Of a stretch of DNA of 64,000 nt, positions 4,773-58,735 are shown one piece after another. The translations under genes and the position numbers were made by a program. This DNA comes from an uncultured bacterium. Its GTDB lineage: Bacteria; Patescibacteriota; Gracilibacteria; Absconditabacterales; Absconditicoccaceae. The stretch's first letter is position 1. The number at the start of each line of letters is the position of its first letter. The notes under the pieces were generated by a model. That model searched no databases. It was given only the letters and a program-made list of their open reading frames with translations, and had not been told where the DNA came from. The stretch is from the NCBI GenBank assembly GCA_937872535.1, contig CALMTC010000011.1:62001-126000 (forward strand). The letters run 5' to 3'.

Positions 4773-6017
4773 ATGAAAACAAATCGAGAAAAATATACTT
4801 CTTGAAATAAAAATTTAAATTCTGCAAAAATACTCACCAAATCAAAGACAGTAATAGTATGAGTATCTGGTTGACCAGATAGTATGGTAACAGCCCATCG
4901 AGTTATCAATTTTTATCAAAAAAGTTCTCCAAAAGCTAAAATCATCATAGCCCACTTTAATCACAATCAAAGAAAAGAAGCCGCATCAGAAGAACAATGG
5001 ATCAAAAAACAGTTTATAAAACAAGAAATCGAAATCGGGCATCATCAAAAAAACAAATCTACAGAAGAAGAATTAAGAAATGCAAGACATCAATTTTTTG
5101 AAAAAATAGCAAAAAAACACAAAAGTAAAATACTTTTTTTGTGACACAATCTAACAGATCGCATTGAAACATCTCTTTTAAATATGGCTCGTGGTTGCGA
5201 ACAAGATTGATTTATCAACATGAAAACAATAGACGAAAAAGAAAACTTAGTAATAATAAGACCATTGCTTCACCTTACTAAAAAAGAGATTATAGCAATT
5301 GCCAAAAAAGAAAAAATAAAATTTCTCATAGATAAAAGTAATTTTTCCATAAAAACTTCAAAAAGAAATTATATAAGAAATAAAATTTTTCCTCTGCTTG
5401 AAAAAATATCAAACAAATCAAAATCATGAAGAGAAAACATATATGAAAGTTTTTCAAAAATCTATGATCTCTATGAAAAGAAAAAAATTAAAAGAAATTT
5501 ACCCAAAAAACGAACAGAATATAAAATTTTCACGCCATGAATAGATTGTCAATGTCGACAACGAAGTTGACAAAACTTGACACCCAAAGACATAGCCGAA
5601 ACCATCAAGCGATTCCATCCAGAAAAAAATCGTAGCCAAGCCTTCATCAAACAAACAGACAAGTTTTTAAATAGTATCAATACAAAGTGATTTACCAAAA
5701 TAGGAGATATTTTTTTCTTCAAATGACAAAAAAACTTTTTTATCTGCAAAACAAAAGAAATTTTTTGGGAAAAAGAAATTGAAACCAAGAAAAAAATCAC
5801 TAGGCTCTGAGAGATAGAATTTTGAAACCAAAAGATTTCAATAACAGAATCTTTTCTATGAGCGACTCTCAGATTCCCCAAAAAATGAGATAAACGATGA
5901 AGCAAGACACTGGCAAAAATATTTATCAATAATAAAATACCAGTCTTCGAAAGATATTGAATACCTATAATAGAAAAAGACAAAGAAATTGTAAAAATAT
6001 TTTATCCCAAACACTAA
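4773..6017 (+). CDS. tilS: tRNA(Ile)-lysidine synthase TilS
   Basis: TilS attaches lysine to C34 of tRNA-Ile(CAU), changing its specificity from Met to Ile codons. The 414-residue protein has the N-type ATP pyrophosphatase loop SGGPDS at residues 32-37, with the first Gly of the VGVSGG stretch written as TGA. It also has the HFNHNQR motif and the GHNLTDRIET motif near residue 128, both typical of TilS. The C-terminal part is Lys-rich and ends with the short beta-rich TilS C-domain (GDKRGSKTLAKIF, a version of the RxGGE/KK segment). It needs about 14 TGA-Gly codons. The next gene starts 9 nt downstream. Confidence 0.93.
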
Positions 6018-6026
6018 AAGTAATAA

Positions 6027-6572
6027 ATGAATCGACAAGAAATAATAAATGAAATAACATCACAAGGACTAATAATGCGAACACAAATTCAACCAGAAAT
6101 AATAATTTTTTATAATGAACATCAATGGTTGCCATATTTTTGAGTTTATCTCGTTGTCATAATTTTATTACACAAATTTAATACAAACCTTTCTCAAAAC
6201 AAACAAAAAATCATACAATCATTTATTTATGAAACAGATCGCCTTCTCTATCAGTACGCCAAAGCCATTCACGAATGAAAAAATCAGATTCATGATTTCA
6301 AATGAGCAATAGAAATACTTTTTGAGAATAAACAACAACTTTTCAAAGAAAAAAATAAGAATTATCTAAACTACTATAATTTATTTGAAAAAGATGCTCG
6401 CTATCTTGGTGAATTAATTGGAAAACCAGTTGCATCAGAGGATTATTTTATGTGAATGAAAAAGTCAGGAGATTTTCTGAGAAGATCAGGAAGACTTCAA
6501 GCCACAATCACAGCCTTTCTAACAGTCTGAACTCTCTGATTTTATCGACCATTTGCCCCAAAAAACAACTAA
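6027..6572 (+). CDS. Membrane protein of unknown function
   Basis: A 181-residue protein starting 9 nt after tilS. A hydrophobic segment lies at about residues 36-50. A long helical region follows (about residues 60-135, rich in Lys, Gln, Tyr and Phe, able to form a coiled coil). A second hydrophobic segment (about 158-172) precedes the C-terminus. It resembles no family I can name. An overlapping +2 frame open from 6452 reads into the next gene, but its composition is unlike the neighbours and it is not called. Position in the tilS to PilT-like ATPase run suggests co-transcription. Confidence 0.6.
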
Positions 6573-39146: not shown

Positions 39147-40448
39147 TTAAGAAGCGATAAATTGCATAATTCCAACAATATGTTTGATTTTTTGATAGTC
39201 TATCAGAGTAAAATCTTCAGTAAACTCCTTGAGTCTTTTTTCATGCATTTTAGTTTTCGTGATCTGTCCACCAAGACCGAGTTCTCAGACAAAAACAAGA
39301 TGTCTATCGAGAATTTTATTTTTATATTGACTCAGAATTCCAGCAGCTATAGCCAAATCCAGACCAGAATCATGAAAACTAAATTCTCAGGGAATATTAA
39401 CATAGATATCAATTCCTCCCAGATCAAGTTTGAGATATTTTTCCAAAATAGCTACGATCAAATTAAGTCTCTGAGTATCAATTCCTATAGCACTTCTTTG
39501 AGGAAACTTAAATTTAGTTTTATTCAAAAGTACCTCCAAATGAACTACCACAGCTCTTCAATTATCGACTCCGACAGTAATAACACTTCAAGGAACAGTG
39601 CTCGTCACAGCATGTAAAATCCTCTCTTTAAGATCATAAACTGGCTTCAGGCCAAACAAACTCATCTCAAAAATCGCCACATCATCAGTGTGACCAAATC
39701 TATTTTTCATACATTTCAAAAGTCTATATTGTCCAAATCTATCACCTTCTAAATACATCACCACATCGACAATATGCTCCAAGTATTTTGGCCCAGCAAT
39801 CTCACCACCTTTGGTAACATGACCAACAATCAAACAAGCAACTCAGCTAGTTTTACAAAACTCAGAAAGTTTTTCAGCACAATACTTAACTTGATTTGGA
39901 CTACCAGCAGTCGAATCTTGTCCTACAGAATAAATAGTCTGAATCGAATCAATCACGATCATATCAAACTTTTTTTCTCTAGTTGTTTCAACAATATCCT
40001 CAAAATGAGTCGAATGAAAAACATCTAAATGAGCACTATCATTTTTATCAGCAGAAATTCTCTTAAATCTATCATAAACTTGAGTCACATTTTCTTCGCC
40101 AGAAAAATAACCAATACGACATCCACCTTGAATATGCTGAATAATTTGCAAAACAATAGTCGATTTACCAATACCAGGCTCACCTCCAAGCAAATAAACA
40201 CCACCGACTTTAATTCAATTCTGCAAGACTCTCTGTAATTCCTTATGCTGAAGATCAAAAAAACTATTTTTTGTATCTTGTCTTCCTGTTTCCAAGACAC
40301 TTCCTGTCGCTATTTCATGTTTTTTCAATTTCTTCCCAGTATCTTTATACTCATCAAAACTTCAAAACGCACTACAGTCAGGACATTTTCACAATTTAAC
40401 AGGAGTTCAATAACCACATTCTTTACACAAATACATCTTCAATTTCAT
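39147..40448 (-). CDS. radA: DNA repair protein RadA
   Basis: RadA is a RecA-like branch-migration helicase. The 433-residue protein has an N-terminal zinc finger (CKECGYGTPVKLGKCPDC), Walker A GEPGIGKST (about residues 96-104), the RadA-specific KNRFG motif (KNRFGHTDDVAIFEM, about 231), and the C-terminal Lon-like domain (LDLAIAAGILSQYKNK, VFVGELGLGGQI). Several zinc-finger and Lon-domain glycines are TGA. The start could be ATG 40446-40448 or the internal one at 40434-40436, which begins directly with MYLCKECG. Confidence 0.95.
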
Positions 40449-40564: not shown

Positions 40565-40663
40565 ATGAAAAAAATCATTGAATCGTTTTTTCTTGCTATT
40601 TCTAAAGCAAGAACCAATCCTGGATTTGGGATAGAAAAAACACTTATAAAAAGGAGACAATAA
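40565..40663 (+). CDS. Possible 32-residue peptide
   Basis: An ATG-to-TAA frame of 33 codons (MKKIIESFFLAISKARTNPG...) in the radA-antiporter gap. It is followed 6 nt after the stop by a strong terminator, which suggests a transcribed unit. The peptide is basic and amphipathic. Coding cannot be proved at this length. Confidence 0.3.
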   Translation: MKKIIESFFLAISKARTNPGFGIEKTLIKRRQ

Positions 40664-40668
40664 GAACA

Positions 40669-40694
40669 AAACACAGCGAATTGCTGTGTTTTTA
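40669..40694 (+). terminator. Intrinsic terminator upstream of the antiporter
   Basis: AAACACAGC (40669-40677) pairs with GCTGTGTTT (40683-40691), loop GAATT, then TTTA. It isolates the antiporter gene from upstream transcription. Confidence 0.8.
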
Positions 40695-40712: not shown

Positions 40713-40740
40713 TTGACTTTTTATTATTTTATACTATAAA
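40713..40740 (+). promoter_or_regulatory. Candidate antiporter promoter
   Basis: TTGACT (40713-40718), 16 nt, TATAAA (40735-40740), 18 nt before the start codon. Confidence 0.55.
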
Positions 40741-40758
40741 CAATAAAACAAAAAAGAA

Positions 40759-41985
40759 ATGAAAAAAATCGCAACCTTATCATTAATAGCATTTCCAAAA
40801 ATGCTATTTGCAAGCGGCGGAACTTCAGAATTACCTGAGGCTTTCATTACATTAGGATTTGTTCTACTCATCTTATTCTTAGGAGTAAGATATGGAAAAC
40901 AACCTGCAATTCTCGTGTCCATAGCAATTGGAATCGCGATTATAAGTTTACTTCCACATGAAGTAAGCAGCAAAATAAGCCACAATCCATTCTTATTTGC
41001 AATCGGCGAAATAGGGTTAGTTATGTTAATGTTTGTGAGCGGCCTAGAAGGAAACTTCCAAACCATCACAAAAAACCTAAAAAATGGTGGAAGCAATGCC
41101 ATCATTGGAATACTTTTAGTAGGATCAGCTGGTTATCTAGTAGCAAAATTACTGTTACCAGAAGCATCTGGATTGACTCACTTTGTCATAGCAGCAGCTC
41201 TGACACCAACAAGCGCAGGAATTCCAGCATCGATATTTAGTGGAAAAAATTCATTTAAAAATGAACAAACCACTACAATAGTCGGTGCAATAACCGACGA
41301 TATAATTGGCCTGATAATATTAACAGTAGTCAATGGACTATTAGCAGGTAAAACAGATCCAGGAAGCATAGCCATTTCTACTTTCACAGCAATTGCATTC
41401 ATCGTAATTGGAACGAGCATAGGACAGCTTGGGAAAAAACAGTTACAAAATCTTTTTGATGCAGCGAAAGCAGAAAGCTTAACATTAGCTCTAGTATTCT
41501 GTTTCATAGTAGCTGGTCTAGCATTCTTTGCTGGGTTAGCTCCGATGATCGGAGGTTATGTAGCAGGACTAATTCTGATAGACATTCAGATCAAAGATTC
41601 CCATGGAGAACCTGCAGAATTAGAACATACCTTAGCTGCTAAAACGGTTTGGATGTTACCAGCTTTCTTTGTTTTATTGGGCATGAAGCTAAATGTAGCA
41701 AACTTGACGGGGAATACGATACTATTCGGACTTGCATTGACAATTGCAACACTTATAGGAAAAGGTTTAACAGGTAAATTAACAGAGAAAATATCTGGAG
41801 GTACTATAAATGGGACCTTCATGACATTTTCAATGACATCTCGCGGTGAAGTAGCAGCCATCATGGCACTCTCAGCTGCAAATGCTGGTTTATTTGCCAG
41901 CAACATCGTAGAAGGATTTGTTCTCATGATCATCATGACATCAGTGATATGTGTCATAGGAACAAATAAACTTCTTAAAAATTGA
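40759..41985 (+). CDS. CPA2-type cation/proton antiporter, likely acquired, ending in TGA
   Basis: A 408-residue, about 12-helix transporter of the monovalent cation:proton antiporter family (CPA2, Kef/NapA-like). The helix-5-type motif is ITDDIIGLI, the Asp-Asp pair of electrogenic exchangers; earlier is GLVMLMFVSGLEGNF. It probably exchanges Na+ or K+ for H+. It contains roughly 45 glycines, none of them TGA, unlike all neighbours of this size. The frame closes at TGA (41983-41985), 7 nt before a terminator; if TGA is Gly it would run 67 codons further, to TAG at 42184. It has its own promoter and two flanking terminators. Confidence 0.85.
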   Translation: MKKIATLSLIAFPKMLFASGGTSELPEAFITLGFVLLILFLGVRYGKQPAILVSIAIGIAIISLLPHEVSSKISHNPFLFAIGEIGLVMLMFVSGLEGNFQTITKNLKNGGSNAIIGILLVGSAGYLVAKLLLPEASGLTHFVIAAALTPTSAGIPASIFSGKNSFKNEQTTTIVGAITDDIIGLIILTVVNGLLAGKTDPGSIAISTFTAIAFIVIGTSIGQLGKKQLQNLFDAAKAESLTLALVFCFIVAGLAFFAGLAPMIGGYVAGLILIDIQIKDSHGEPAELEHTLAAKTVWMLPAFFVLLGMKLNVANLTGNTILFGLALTIATLIGKGLTGKLTEKISGGTINGTFMTFSMTSRGEVAAIMALSAANAGLFASNIVEGFVLMIIMTSVICVIGTNKLLKN

Positions 41986-41992
41986 AAAATAC

Positions 41993-42018
41993 ACTCCAAG
42001 TTTATCTTGGAGTTTTTT
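41993..42018. terminator. Terminator between antiporter and mutY
   Basis: ACTCCAAG (41993-42000) pairs with CTTGGAGT (42006-42013), followed by TTTTTT. It begins 8 nt after the TGA that ends the antiporter under the standard code. Confidence 0.85.
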
Positions 42019-42019
42019 C

Positions 42020-42823
42020 TTACAAAAAAAGTTCACCATCCTCGAGTTTTACGATTTTTTCCTTGAGCATTTTCTCAATCACAGTATCAAATTTTTCATG
42101 AGGAAAAAGTTTTTTCACATCAGAAAGAGAAATTTTTTTCATCTTCAAAAGTTGCTTTACAATTCAGCTTCTCACCCATCTCGTAGAACCCAGAAATTTC
42201 GACTGCTTAGCTCAAAAGGTAACACCAGTTTTTTCAGCAGTTAAAACCAAAGCTCCATAGTCCATGAGAGCATTATGTCGATCACGAGATTGCCCTTTCG
42301 GTAAAATCAGAGAAGAAATTTTTTTTAAATATTCATGAGAAGATTGAGGATCGAGTGAAAACTCAACAGTCAAAACTCTCTTGATATTAACATCAATCAC
42401 TGGCACATCAGCATTAAAAGCAAAAGCCATGACAGCGTGAGCAGTATAATCTCCAATGCCAGGCAGTTTTAAAAGTCACTCCAGACTATCAGGAAACCTT
42501 CAATTCAGTTCAGAAACGATTTTTTCAGCAGCTTGCTGAAGACGCAAGCCCCTAGAATTATAGCCAAGTCCCGACCAAAGCCCAAGCAAAGTAGTTTTAT
42601 CAACCTGAGCAAGCTCAAAAACAGTGGGTAATTCACGCAAAAAACGCTCATAATAATTGATCACTCTAGAAACCTGAGTTTGTTGTAGCATCACTTCAGA
42701 AATCCAAATTTCATAAGGATTTTGTGTATTTCTCCACGGCAAATCTCTGCGATTTTTTTCATACCAACTCCACACTTTTTTCTGAAAATTTTTTATCTGG
42801 CTCTTTGACAAAGAAATAGTCAT
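42020..42823 (-). CDS. mutY: MutY-like adenine DNA glycosylase without the iron-sulphur cysteines
   Basis: MutY removes A mispaired with 8-oxoG. The 267-residue protein has RDLPWRNTQNPYEIWISEVMLQQTQV with the catalytic Glu, the HhH motif LPGIGDYTAHAVMAFAF, and the catalytic Asp in VIDVNIKRV. In normal MutY the segment after ALMDYGALV holds four Cys of a [4Fe-4S] cluster. Here it reads LTAEKTGVTFGAKQSKF with no Cys. The C-terminal NUDIX-like recognition domain is also missing; a short helical tail takes its place. Confidence 0.87.
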
Positions 42824-56938: not shown

Positions 56939-57072
56939 ATCAAAAAAACAAGAATAAAAATCATCTTTGATCTACTAAAATCATACAATAATGCAATCAC
57001 AAAGCACCTATTAAAAATAATTAAAAAAAAATGTAAAGGACTTGATTTTTTTAAAATTATCTATACAGAGGC

Positions 57073-57099
57073 GGTGTGTGAGAAATAAAAAAACACACC
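57073..57099 (+). promoter_or_regulatory. Hairpin just before the type IX-tailed gene
   Basis: GGTGTGT (57073-57079) pairs with ACACACC (57093-57099). The stem ends 8 nt before the ATG at 57108, so it could mask the ribosome binding region. A weak TTGATT/TATACA pair with a 14-nt spacer lies upstream at 57042-57067. Confidence 0.4.
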
Positions 57100-57107
57100 T
57101 AAATTAT

Positions 57108-58634
57108 ATGTATAAAAAATTAAAAAATTATTTGCTCTTTATCTTGTGTTTTTTGGTATTGTGTCAATCTCTGCTGGGACAAAACAAGCCAAAGAAAAAA
57201 AGTAGCCCTGCTGACTGGGGGTTGATGGCCGCATGGAATACATCCACTACGCCAACAGCAACAGATACAGCATGGTTTGGATCAACCTCTGGTCCTTGTT
57301 CACTTTATGTTTCTAGTGCAATCAGTACTTTGTTGATAGATAATCTCTATGGACAAAAAATTACTCTTTTGGACACAGTAAAATTAAAACTCCAAAAAGA
57401 TGTGATATGCAAAAGAAATGGCATTGTAACAATGGACTTTAAGAATGGAGAAATTGAGTTTTATGGTTCAGAAAATGCTGTGATCGACAACATCGCTCCA
57501 GTAATCAAAATTCGTAAGCTCAGAATCAACAAAAGCTCAGGAGCGACTGTTACCCTAATCAATCAGAGCGTACAATGTGACACTCTTATCCTAGATGGAG
57601 GAACTCTTCAGACCGGATCTTACAAGATCATAGTCGGAGATAGCACCTCTGGGAAACCTGGAGTCATCATTTCAAATGGTGGTTTCATGGAAGGCACTAT
57701 CTCACTCATCGTGACAACGAGTTCAGCAGCACAGGTAGCAATACCACTCGTACAAGCTGGACTCAAAAGAGAAATAAAACTGAATAACTTTAGCGGTTCA
57801 TTCGGACCGTCAAACAGAGGAAAATTAGAAATTTCCTTCGTAAACACTGCACCTGGGGACAATGGTCTTCCTCTAGTAGAAAACGGTAGAATTATGACCA
57901 CCGCATCTTCAGACGGGTTCTGGAGGATAACAAAAGTAGATGACATATTATCAGCTAGTTATGACATAAGCATAACTGCTGAAAACTTTAGCGGAATCTC
58001 AGATTTCGCGAACATAACGATACTAAAAAGATCTTCATCGATCGATCCTTGGACTGCGCAAGGAACACACGAAACTGGGACAGGGAGCAATTCATTACCC
58101 ACTGCTCATAGAACTAGTCTTACAGATTTCAGTGAGTTCGCGATTAGCCAAGGAAGTCCACCGACACCCCTACCGATTGAGCTCATCAAGTTCAAAGCTA
58201 TTGGAAAAAATCTAGTCTGGGAAATAAGCAACCCAGAAAAGATTAGTAGCTTTACAATAAGCCATTCCATCGATTTACTCAATTGGGAGCAAATAAGCGA
58301 AATTATTCCAAATTTAGCTTTTACATACTCTCAGACAGTAGATAAGAGTGGCTTCTACAGACTAAAAATCAATGAGATTGATGGTTCAGAAACTATTTCC
58401 ATACTAGAAATAGAAAAATCATCTTTCGATAAAACATCTACAGCTACCATCAAAGGAAAAACCCTAGATGTAAACTGTCCAGATGAAACAGAAATCATGA
58501 TTATGAGCTACTCAGGAGTTACACTCCTTGAGCAAAAAACACAAGGAAGCGCTTTATTCGATCTTTCTCACTTATCAACAGGGATTTACATCCTAAGAAT
58601 AGGAGAAGAAAAGAAAAAAATTTTCCTTGAATAG
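57108..58634 (+). CDS. Bacteroidota-like secreted protein with type IX sorting tail, likely acquired
   Basis: A 508-residue protein with a signal peptide (about 1-24, SLLGQ). A beta-rich region follows, starting near a WNTSTTPTATDTAWFG stretch with beta-helix-like rungs and a SSIDPWTAQGTHETGT segment. After PPTPLPIELIKFKAIGKN comes a C-terminal domain ending LSTGIYILRIGEEKKKIFLE, the pattern of the Por/type IX secretion sorting domain of Bacteroidota. Glycines use GGA, GGT and GGG; none is TGA. I chose ATG 57108; the frame is open upstream to 57042. It ends in TAG before a perfect terminator. Confidence 0.8.
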   Translation: MYKKLKNYLLFILCFLVLCQSLLGQNKPKKKSSPADWGLMAAWNTSTTPTATDTAWFGSTSGPCSLYVSSAISTLLIDNLYGQKITLLDTVKLKLQKDVICKRNGIVTMDFKNGEIEFYGSENAVIDNIAPVIKIRKLRINKSSGATVTLINQSVQCDTLILDGGTLQTGSYKIIVGDSTSGKPGVIISNGGFMEGTISLIVTTSSAAQVAIPLVQAGLKREIKLNNFSGSFGPSNRGKLEISFVNTAPGDNGLPLVENGRIMTTASSDGFWRITKVDDILSASYDISITAENFSGISDFANITILKRSSSIDPWTAQGTHETGTGSNSLPTAHRTSLTDFSEFAISQGSPPTPLPIELIKFKAIGKNLVWEISNPEKISSFTISHSIDLLNWEQISEIIPNLAFTYSQTVDKSGFYRLKINEIDGSETISILEIEKSSFDKTSTATIKGKTLDVNCPDETEIMIMSYSGVTLLEQKTQGSALFDLSHLSTGIYILRIGEEKKKIFLE

Positions 58635-58639
58635 ACTAC

Positions 58640-58667
58640 CCCCGTTCATAATGAACGGGGTTTTTTT
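58640..58667 (+). terminator. Perfect terminator after the type IX-tailed gene
   Basis: CCCCGTTCAT (58640-58649) pairs with ATGAACGGGG (58651-58660) around one base, then seven T. It is much more GC-rich than other terminators here. Confidence 0.9.
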
Positions 58668-58735
58668 ATTGAAAATTTTTCAAAAAAAATCCATCCACAG
58701 AAATGGACAGATTTTTTAAAGACTTATAATAGTTT

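Follow-up and report, generated by a model that had tools for sequence, protein, structure and literature searches.

The nearest known case to the genes described here, within a literature coverage that took in few subscription papers and preprints, is that of the code-11-compatible phages of Gracilibacteria and Absconditabacteria, which in the available part of the report are proposed to be legible in both codes (Liu et al., 2023, PMC10746230). The DNA considered here is a stretch of 64,000 nucleotides (the window) from an uncultured bacterium of the Absconditicoccaceae (Absconditabacterales, Gracilibacteria; contig CALMTC010000011.1, positions 62,001 to 126,000), which reads UGA as glycine (genetic code 25), and the gene in question encodes a CPA2/NapA-type cation:proton antiporter, has no TGA glycine codons and ends in TGA. 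The likeness to the phages lies in genes without in-frame TGA that are tied to UGA=Gly bacteria. As far as the available passages of that report go, the TGA stops of the phages are closely backed by other stops and prophages are in code 25, whereas the genes here are chromosomal, many are syntenic across genera and several have UGA stops without a back-up before the terminator. The available passages of two further papers (PMC6851277 and PMC11452946) make no mention of a class of standard-code genes in a recoded chromosome. Within the coverage given above no literature on Gracilibacteria and type IX secretion was found. Agrobacterium T-DNA genes, too, reside in one organism and have expression signals that work in a different one; the gene class described below is like them in that its signals would fit another organism and unlike them in having no border sequences, no transfer system that has been shown and units that are scattered singly. 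The best reading of our results, to which we give an even chance of being right, is that the antiporter gene and its class are genes kept legible to standard-code ribosomes. What carries it is evidence read from sequence, namely TGA-free coding, the TGA end, the terminator, features shared within the class, long-term exclusion of TGA from genes with type IX secretion system (T9SS) tails and a failure to find release factor 2 (RF2).

The antiporter gene has 45 glycine codons (24 GGA, 11 GGT, 5 GGC and 5 GGG) and none is TGA, so the preliminary description of this DNA, which had put the number at about 45 with no TGA, was correct. For comparison a sample of 464 kb of the same genome was used, made up of the window and a further 20 pieces of 20 kb each. 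Counted under table 25 in its 312 called genes with a length of 150 aa or more, TGA accounts for 2,974 of 8,137 glycine codons (36.5%). At that rate, assuming independent codons, 0 of 45 has a probability of about 1e-9. Among the 158 genes with at least 20 glycines only two others are TGA-free, a T9SS-tail gene in the window (0/39) and a GGT-biased protein of 1,176 aa (0/108). The antiporter gene thus bears neither mark of a code-25 gene, TGA glycines or a TAA/TAG stop. The Na_H_Exchanger domain PF00999 extends over the full length of the protein (residues 35–403, E 2.2e-33), and PDB gives a match to an antiporter structure (E 7.2e-18). With the NCBIfam CPA2 subfamily model TIGR00932 the score is 69.5 bits against a cut-off of 238.3, and the protein is a distant member of the CPA2 superfamily that falls outside this model. 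It resembles CPA2/NapA-type Na+/H+ antiporters in superfamily, in full length and in having an Asp-Asp pair and a Lys (D180–D181 and K335, invariant in an alignment of four sequences), which by analogy with NapA we take to be transport residues; it differs in its low TIGR00932 score, and no full-length relative closer than 31% identity turned up. Homologues have their C-termini no more than a few residues away from the position of the TGA at 41983–41985, in agreement with the earlier proposal that this is the natural end of the protein.

A terminator had been predicted to begin 8 nt after this TGA. The terminator itself holds (its 40-nt RNA has a folding energy of −14 kcal/mol with z −4.73, and none of 200 shuffles did equally well) and the spacing is 7 nt; the hairpin is terminator-like on the minus strand too, where it would serve the convergent mutY-like gene. 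By the standard code the protein ends ...NKLLKN and by readthrough it is predicted to end ...KNGKIHSKFILEFF. The next in-frame TAA or TAG is, as described before, a TAG 67 codons on, and the extension up to it contains a second in-frame TGA. Whether UGA can terminate in this genome was judged from its translation factors. None of the 49 family genomes rose above the cut-off of the prfB model for RF2 compared with 10 of 14 controls; matches below the cut-off in 46 of the 49 are presumably RF1, and the three genomes without any match to the model are 65–88% complete. The sole full release factor of this genome has a PAT motif, which we take to indicate RF1. The genome also encodes a small protein that looks like ArfB, having an RF domain, GGQ and a basic tail. 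There is a 74-nt tRNA with UCA anticodon (labelled SeC by ARAGORN), and the genome therefore has all three marks of genetic code 25, TGA as a glycine codon, the UCA tRNA and no RF2 found. As no RF2 was found, UGA is not expected to act as a stop in this cell, which would make the antiporter message a non-stop one. The preliminary description had left two outcomes, a natural non-stop message or UGA that can still terminate in some contexts. The first is the likely one on this gene content (UCA tRNA, transfer-messenger RNA (tmRNA) and ArfB-like protein, no RF2 found), and the counts with the prfB model give no support to the second. In its own cell the antiporter mRNA is therefore likely to be non-stop and to be met by rescue: ribosomes would add about 12 residues, reach the 3′ end and be released by tmRNA or the ArfB-like protein. 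The co-occurrence of a tmRNA with the tag ANSNLRLAAFNHAYAA (L018) and an ArfB-like protein (L017, 1486–1893) in a genome without detected RF2 is an observation in its own right.

The TGA-free gene with a T9SS tail elsewhere in the window led to a wider set of genes. A search with PF18962 (T9SS C-terminal sorting domain) found matches in 31 of the 49 family genomes, and all 79 matches listed were examined, some of which, including that of the window gene (23.4 bits against a cut-off of 27), are below the Pfam cut-off. They comprise 67 in TGA-free genes (61 + 6), seven in TGA-bearing genes with a terminal domain, one in a gene that the end of its contig truncates and four doubtful ones in which the domain is not terminal. 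The 61 TGA-free genes, from 26 genomes, contain 3,210 glycine codons and no TGA in the standard-code reading. This reading excludes TGA by nature, and the frames were therefore reread from TAA/TAG to TAA/TAG: 55 of the 61 have no TGA, in four it appears no earlier than the stop, and in two (L171 and L188) it lies only upstream of the chosen start, so that these two remain ambiguous; four of the 61 genes reach a contig edge. Their stops are TAA (46), TAG (11) and TGA (4; L142 and L159, both of the antiporter's own genome, L172 of G002 and L176 of G012). TGA-ended units are also found in L070, L071 and L074 of the antiporter's own genome, and the 19 units gathered within the sampled part of that genome, which were chosen by their standard-code frames, have TGA (6), TAA (9) and TAG (4) as stops. 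No in-frame TAA or TAG precedes the terminator T-run in L142, L172, L176, L070, L074 and the antiporter gene; L159 has a TAG 8 codons on and the L071 unit a TAA directly behind its TGA. An automatic search placed a perfect-stem hairpin with T-run downstream of 13 of these 19 units, and five of the remaining six have imperfect ones by eye. In the taxonomic class at large PF18962 is present at E 1e-6 in 32 of 192 genomes, 21 of the 32 being in this family. The tail proteins resemble T9SS cargo in their terminal sorting domain and signal-peptide-like N-termini (the antiporter has no tail) and differ from it in being found in code-25 Patescibacteria; the three matches of the window tail gene in plasmid records are all T9SS proteins of Hymenobacter and Flammeovirga. 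SprA, of the T9SS translocon, was matched in 0 of 49 family genomes and in no control genome either, which makes that search uninformative. L138, a glycine-rich gene of these genomes whose product has a signal-like N-terminus, uses TGA freely (54/151), and therefore secretion itself is not the reason for TGA exclusion. Two other kinds of TGA-free gene were seen in passing. One is a UPF0182 protein of 1,009 aa (L140, 6180–9206, in G014) with 0/57 TGA and a TTGACTT promoter, a membrane-type member of the class adjoining a TGA-free tail gene; the other comprises TTGACTT-led leucine-rich-repeat proteins of the antiporter's own genome (L062, 4713–5378, minus strand, by Pfam; L067, about 5226–6197, minus strand, by eye).

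The preliminary description had taken the absence of TGA to mean a recent gain from a standard-code donor. To see how old such exclusion can be, tail genes of the 61 were compared in pairs where one or more code-25 genes next to them are orthologous between the two loci; the TGA-bearing tail genes lie outside this comparison and were compared separately. There are 40 such syntenic pairs (not mutually independent) from 22 loci in six genera, and their 1,310 shared glycine columns include 856 in which one GGN codon faces a different one and none in which GGN faces TGA. In 118 pairs of neighbouring genes GGN faces TGA in 596 of 1,871 glycine columns, and TGA is present in both in 314. None of the 22 loci has a TGA anywhere in the code-25 frame. 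The ratio of non-synonymous to synonymous divergence (dN/dS) is 0.13–0.43 in 10 of 12 pairs tested, with dS 1.4–5.5, and dS was saturated in the other two. One genus (g13) has, in several species, a three-gene TGA-free cassette beside a cluster of genes that, from their sequences, we take to be ribosomal; the other two genes of the cassette, which PF18962 did not find, have 0 TGA in 269 and 98 glycine codons. As judged from these alignments, exclusion of TGA in the tail genes that can be compared is old and maintained; among tail genes as a whole it is not universal. The step from zero TGA to a recent gain had to be given up because the 40 syntenic pairs are free of TGA at high synonymous divergence. 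Of the earlier claim, then, the standard-code writing stands, and for the antiporter gene ‘recent’ is neither shown nor excluded.

A type of promoter and a type of leader also accompany the class. The pattern TTGACTTTT...TATA was first noticed on tail genes and the antiporter gene. The antiporter gene and five of the six tail genes of its genome have TTGACT some 16 nt upstream of a box rich in T and A, the tail gene of the window having TTGATT. When all genes of the 464-kb sample were then searched, TTGACTT...TA was seen to lead 13 of them: the antiporter gene, one tail gene, nine without TGA glycines in the standard-code frame (two of which, in L070 and L074, count only if their TGA is a stop) and two code-25 genes (L058, 10/15; L069, 4/21). 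Pfam scanning of seven of the nine gave one leucine-rich-repeat protein and six without a match. Genes led by TTGACA have 222 TGA among 607 glycine codons. Of the 20 leader nucleotides, A makes up on average 13.4 in TGA-free TTGACTT genes (n = 28), 8.2 in TTGACA genes (n = 48) and 8.2 in TGA-using TTGACTT genes (n = 6, L058 and L069 included); five TGA-using tail genes have 4–8, taking the first Met as start. Among genes with leaders of at most 10 A, 15 of 274 are TGA-free or have TGA at the end only. In 52 TGA-free tail genes the frequency of A peaks at −14 (0.79), at −13 to −11 (0.67) and at −6 (0.77), and this matches the pattern reported, in the available part of the paper, for Flavobacterium johnsoniae, where the region −14 to −11 has an excess of A and the positive determinants include an A at −3, −6, −12 and −13 (PMC6847099). 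A separate observation is that in 448 code-25 genes of the family, counted from the first ATG, positions −20 to −12 are rich in T (0.42–0.51) and a Shine-Dalgarno sequence is lacking, and it is possible that this is the native initiation signal of code-25 genes. A difference in Shine-Dalgarno frequency was considered and dropped (3% of 264 and 3% of 214 code-25 genes, 9% of 54 tail genes and 2–3% of shuffled sequences).

On the reading that these are genes kept legible to standard-code ribosomes, the antiporter gene would be a self-contained standard-code unit in a UGA=Gly genome, with the UGA at 41983 a true stop in that code, and it shares its build with the other members of the class, in which each unit has its own TTGACTTTT...TATA promoter, a leader rich in A, a coding frame free of UGA sense codons that closes with one or another of the three stops, UGA included, a terminator and often a T9SS tail. 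The ribosomes to be served would most plausibly be those of a Bacteroidota partner; we infer such a partner, selection as the cause of TGA exclusion and a history that the antiporter gene shares with the class. In its fullest form this would mean that these bacteria, which are probably episymbiotic, keep the gene set, the antiporter included, for translation inside the partner and deliver it as mRNA or DNA, using a promoter of their own kind while leader signal, type IX sorting tails, genetic code and stop codons would be those of the partner. We regard this specific form as doubtful. Several results weigh against the general reading or this extension of it. No route that would move DNA or RNA into a partner came out of a search for VirD4-type transfer machinery (PF02534), which gave no match in this genome and matches in 18 of the 49 family genomes, two of them strong. 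The markers of the class are imperfect: L058 and L069, code-25 genes with the class promoter, are like the class in their A-rich leaders too (12 and 13 A in 20 nt), a looser box adds a third code-25 gene (L056, 11067; 8/31), L066 of the class lacks an A-rich leader (5 of 20), and the leader as such is a weak marker, since of the genes with at least 13 A only 13 of 28 are TGA-free or have TGA at the end only and their pooled TGA share is still 0.29. The Bacteroidota −7 element TAnnTTTG occurs in three of 52 tail-gene promoters, the same as in shuffles, so that the promoter is not of Bacteroidota type. For 39 of the 61 tail genes a syntenic partner is absent from the sample, and in g13 the identities of cassette and other genes are uncorrelated (r = 0.07), so the tree comparison lacks signal and descent rests on synteny. 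Seven tail genes with the C-terminal domain carry TGA (from 3/30 to 22/66), three of them from G036. For the antiporter gene itself, codon usage is atypical (2nd percentile of the genome), which fits a recent import, and no relative was found at the same locus in the genomes compared, which bears on its age.

One of these seven matters most. L202 (G036:C48) has TGA at 16 of 40 glycines and a weak tail (E 3.2e-4), its 5′ end is cut by the contig, and it shares ribosomal-cluster neighbours with 11 TGA-free tail loci (L139, L141, L146, L149, L152, L155, L161, L162, L174, L179 and L187), with whose tail genes it has no detectable sequence similarity. In one lineage, then, the tail gene at the ribosomal-cluster locus is a code-25 gene; either TGA exclusion is open to loss or a different gene has taken the place of the old one. 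Because of L202 we lowered our belief in legibility to standard-code ribosomes and raised that in import alone. An eighth TGA-using tail gene, L212 (5/13), is truncated where its contig stops.

Import alone, which would have the antiporter gene arrive as a standard-code gene with promoter and terminator and its TGA stop unrepaired, the class mates being other arrivals and the intermediates genes in the course of adapting, we consider possible, at about a third of our belief, and it draws on much of what has just been listed (the codon usage of the antiporter gene, the 39 tail genes without partner, the TGA-bearing tail gene at a locus that is TGA-free in relatives). Intermediate tail genes (3/30, 5/41 and 8/41) and Bacteroidota-like tails and leaders fit it as well, and among the 48 other family genomes just one has a match to the antiporter, at 26%. 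Set against it are the 22 of 61 tail genes that lie in neighbourhoods common across species and genera, with high synonymous divergence and 0 TGA in 1,310 glycine columns, promoters that are not of the Bacteroidota kind and the lack of a donor in the databases scanned. The donor search that the preliminary description had called for found no homologue above about 36% identity in 98 relatives, 379 genomes of the phylum, genome_contigs, viral contigs, plasmids, phages and PDB; its reach into Bacteroidota was limited to two pattern scans of genome_contigs, one with the single sequence (0 matches) and one with a two-row alignment that gave poor automatic patterns (one relative from Patescibacteria, 29%). 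The comparison with sister genomes that had likewise been proposed showed that the neighbourhood is not conserved around mutY: at the mutY loci of 29 other genomes no RadA-like match lies in the flanks (up to 1.5 kb). The antiporter gene may have belonged to the class for long or have come in newly, having the coding, leader, promoter, terminator and stop of the class and neither a tail nor an orthologue at the locus.

A native code-25 gene whose TAA or TAG stop mutated to TGA, resulting in extension or non-stop decay, with zero TGA due to chance or constraint, is very improbable. The change from TAA to TGA needs only one base and the key residues are intact, but 0/45 has a probability of about 1e-9 at the genome rate and other TGA-free genes are TGA-ended too (those in L142, L159, L172, L176, L070, L071 and L074). 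We give scarcely more credit, indeed slightly less, to high expression, in which a slow UGA codon is avoided and zero TGA is codon optimisation. The most biased genes do avoid TGA (the 1,176-aa protein 0/108; a gene that we take to be EF-Tu-like 1/39) and there is a weak overall correlation (r = −0.21, n = 215), but on the expression-type codon score the antiporter gene is at the 3rd percentile and the tail genes of its genome at the 29th to 77th, compared with the 97th to 100th for the reference genes that define the score; GGC and GGG make up 24% of GGN in tail genes versus 8–12% in four ribosome-linked genes of g13, and the UGA stops are left unexplained. This explanation was rejected, as antiporter and tail genes lack expression-type codon bias. 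The 1,176-aa protein itself (L061, 767–4297), with a signal-like start and a strong GGT/GGA bias, is a case of expression-type TGA avoidance with a cause distinct from that of the class. The least credible alternative, pieces of Bacteroidota DNA assembled or binned into a draft genome of 23 contigs with an estimated 4% contamination, is at odds with units that sit between code-25 genes on long contigs, with TGA-free tail genes in a single-contig genome (G026) and with the 40 syntenic pairs that have code-25 neighbours.

At the antiporter locus both flanking genes carry TGA codons (Table 1) and are therefore code-25 genes, so that a contig mis-join at the gene borders, named earlier as a possible refutation, is unlikely at this sequence-level check. 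Just upstream of the antiporter gene, at 40565–40692, a 32-codon frame (MKKIIESFFLAISKARTNPGFGIEKTLIKRRQ) has an A-rich leader, a TAA stop and its own terminator (40668–40692) and is perhaps another small unit of the standard-code class.

Table 1. Features at the antiporter locus and the second standard-code unit, in window positions.
Feature	Position	Strand	Remarks
Gene with RadA-like domains (name inferred), upstream neighbour	39147..40448	-	Code 25, 9 TGA codons
Promoter-like site of antiporter gene, TTGACT-N16-TATAAA	40713..40740	+	TTGACTT...TA type as in other TGA-free units; unlisted by generic sigma-70 scan
Leader of antiporter gene	40739..40758	+	16/20 A, no Shine-Dalgarno
CPA2/NapA-type cation:proton antiporter gene	40759..41985	+	ATG 40759; 408 aa; TGA end 41983-41985; PF00999 and PDB antiporter match
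Readthrough stretch if UGA=Gly, GKIHSKFILEFF	41983..42018	+	About 12 codons to expected 3′ end, no in-frame TAA/TAG
Intrinsic terminator, ACTCCAAG-5-CTTGGAGT + T-run	41993..42018	+	Stem 41993-42013
mutY-like gene (HhH-GPD domain), convergent neighbour	42020..42823	-	Code 25, 4 TGA codons
First in-frame code-25 stop, TAG	42184..42186	+	Past terminator, antisense to mutY-like gene
Second standard-code unit in window	57042..58668	+	TTGATT site; gene 57108-58634 (508 aa, TAG stop, no TGA); terminator to 58668

The reassignment of a codon is usually thought to carry all the genes of a genome along with it. In the bacteria described here some chromosomal genes seem to have long been kept out of the new code, with a leader type of their own and with UGA as a stop in a cell that appears to have no means of stopping there. 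If these genes were translated in a partner, UGA would be a normal stop in that cell and the non-stop state at home would silence the product. The absence of TGA from a gene is a simple test by which the class can be listed in any code-25 genome, and what is listed would be either a record of genes passing between recoded bacteria and their standard-code neighbours, and of their repair, or a sign of genes that are read in another cell.

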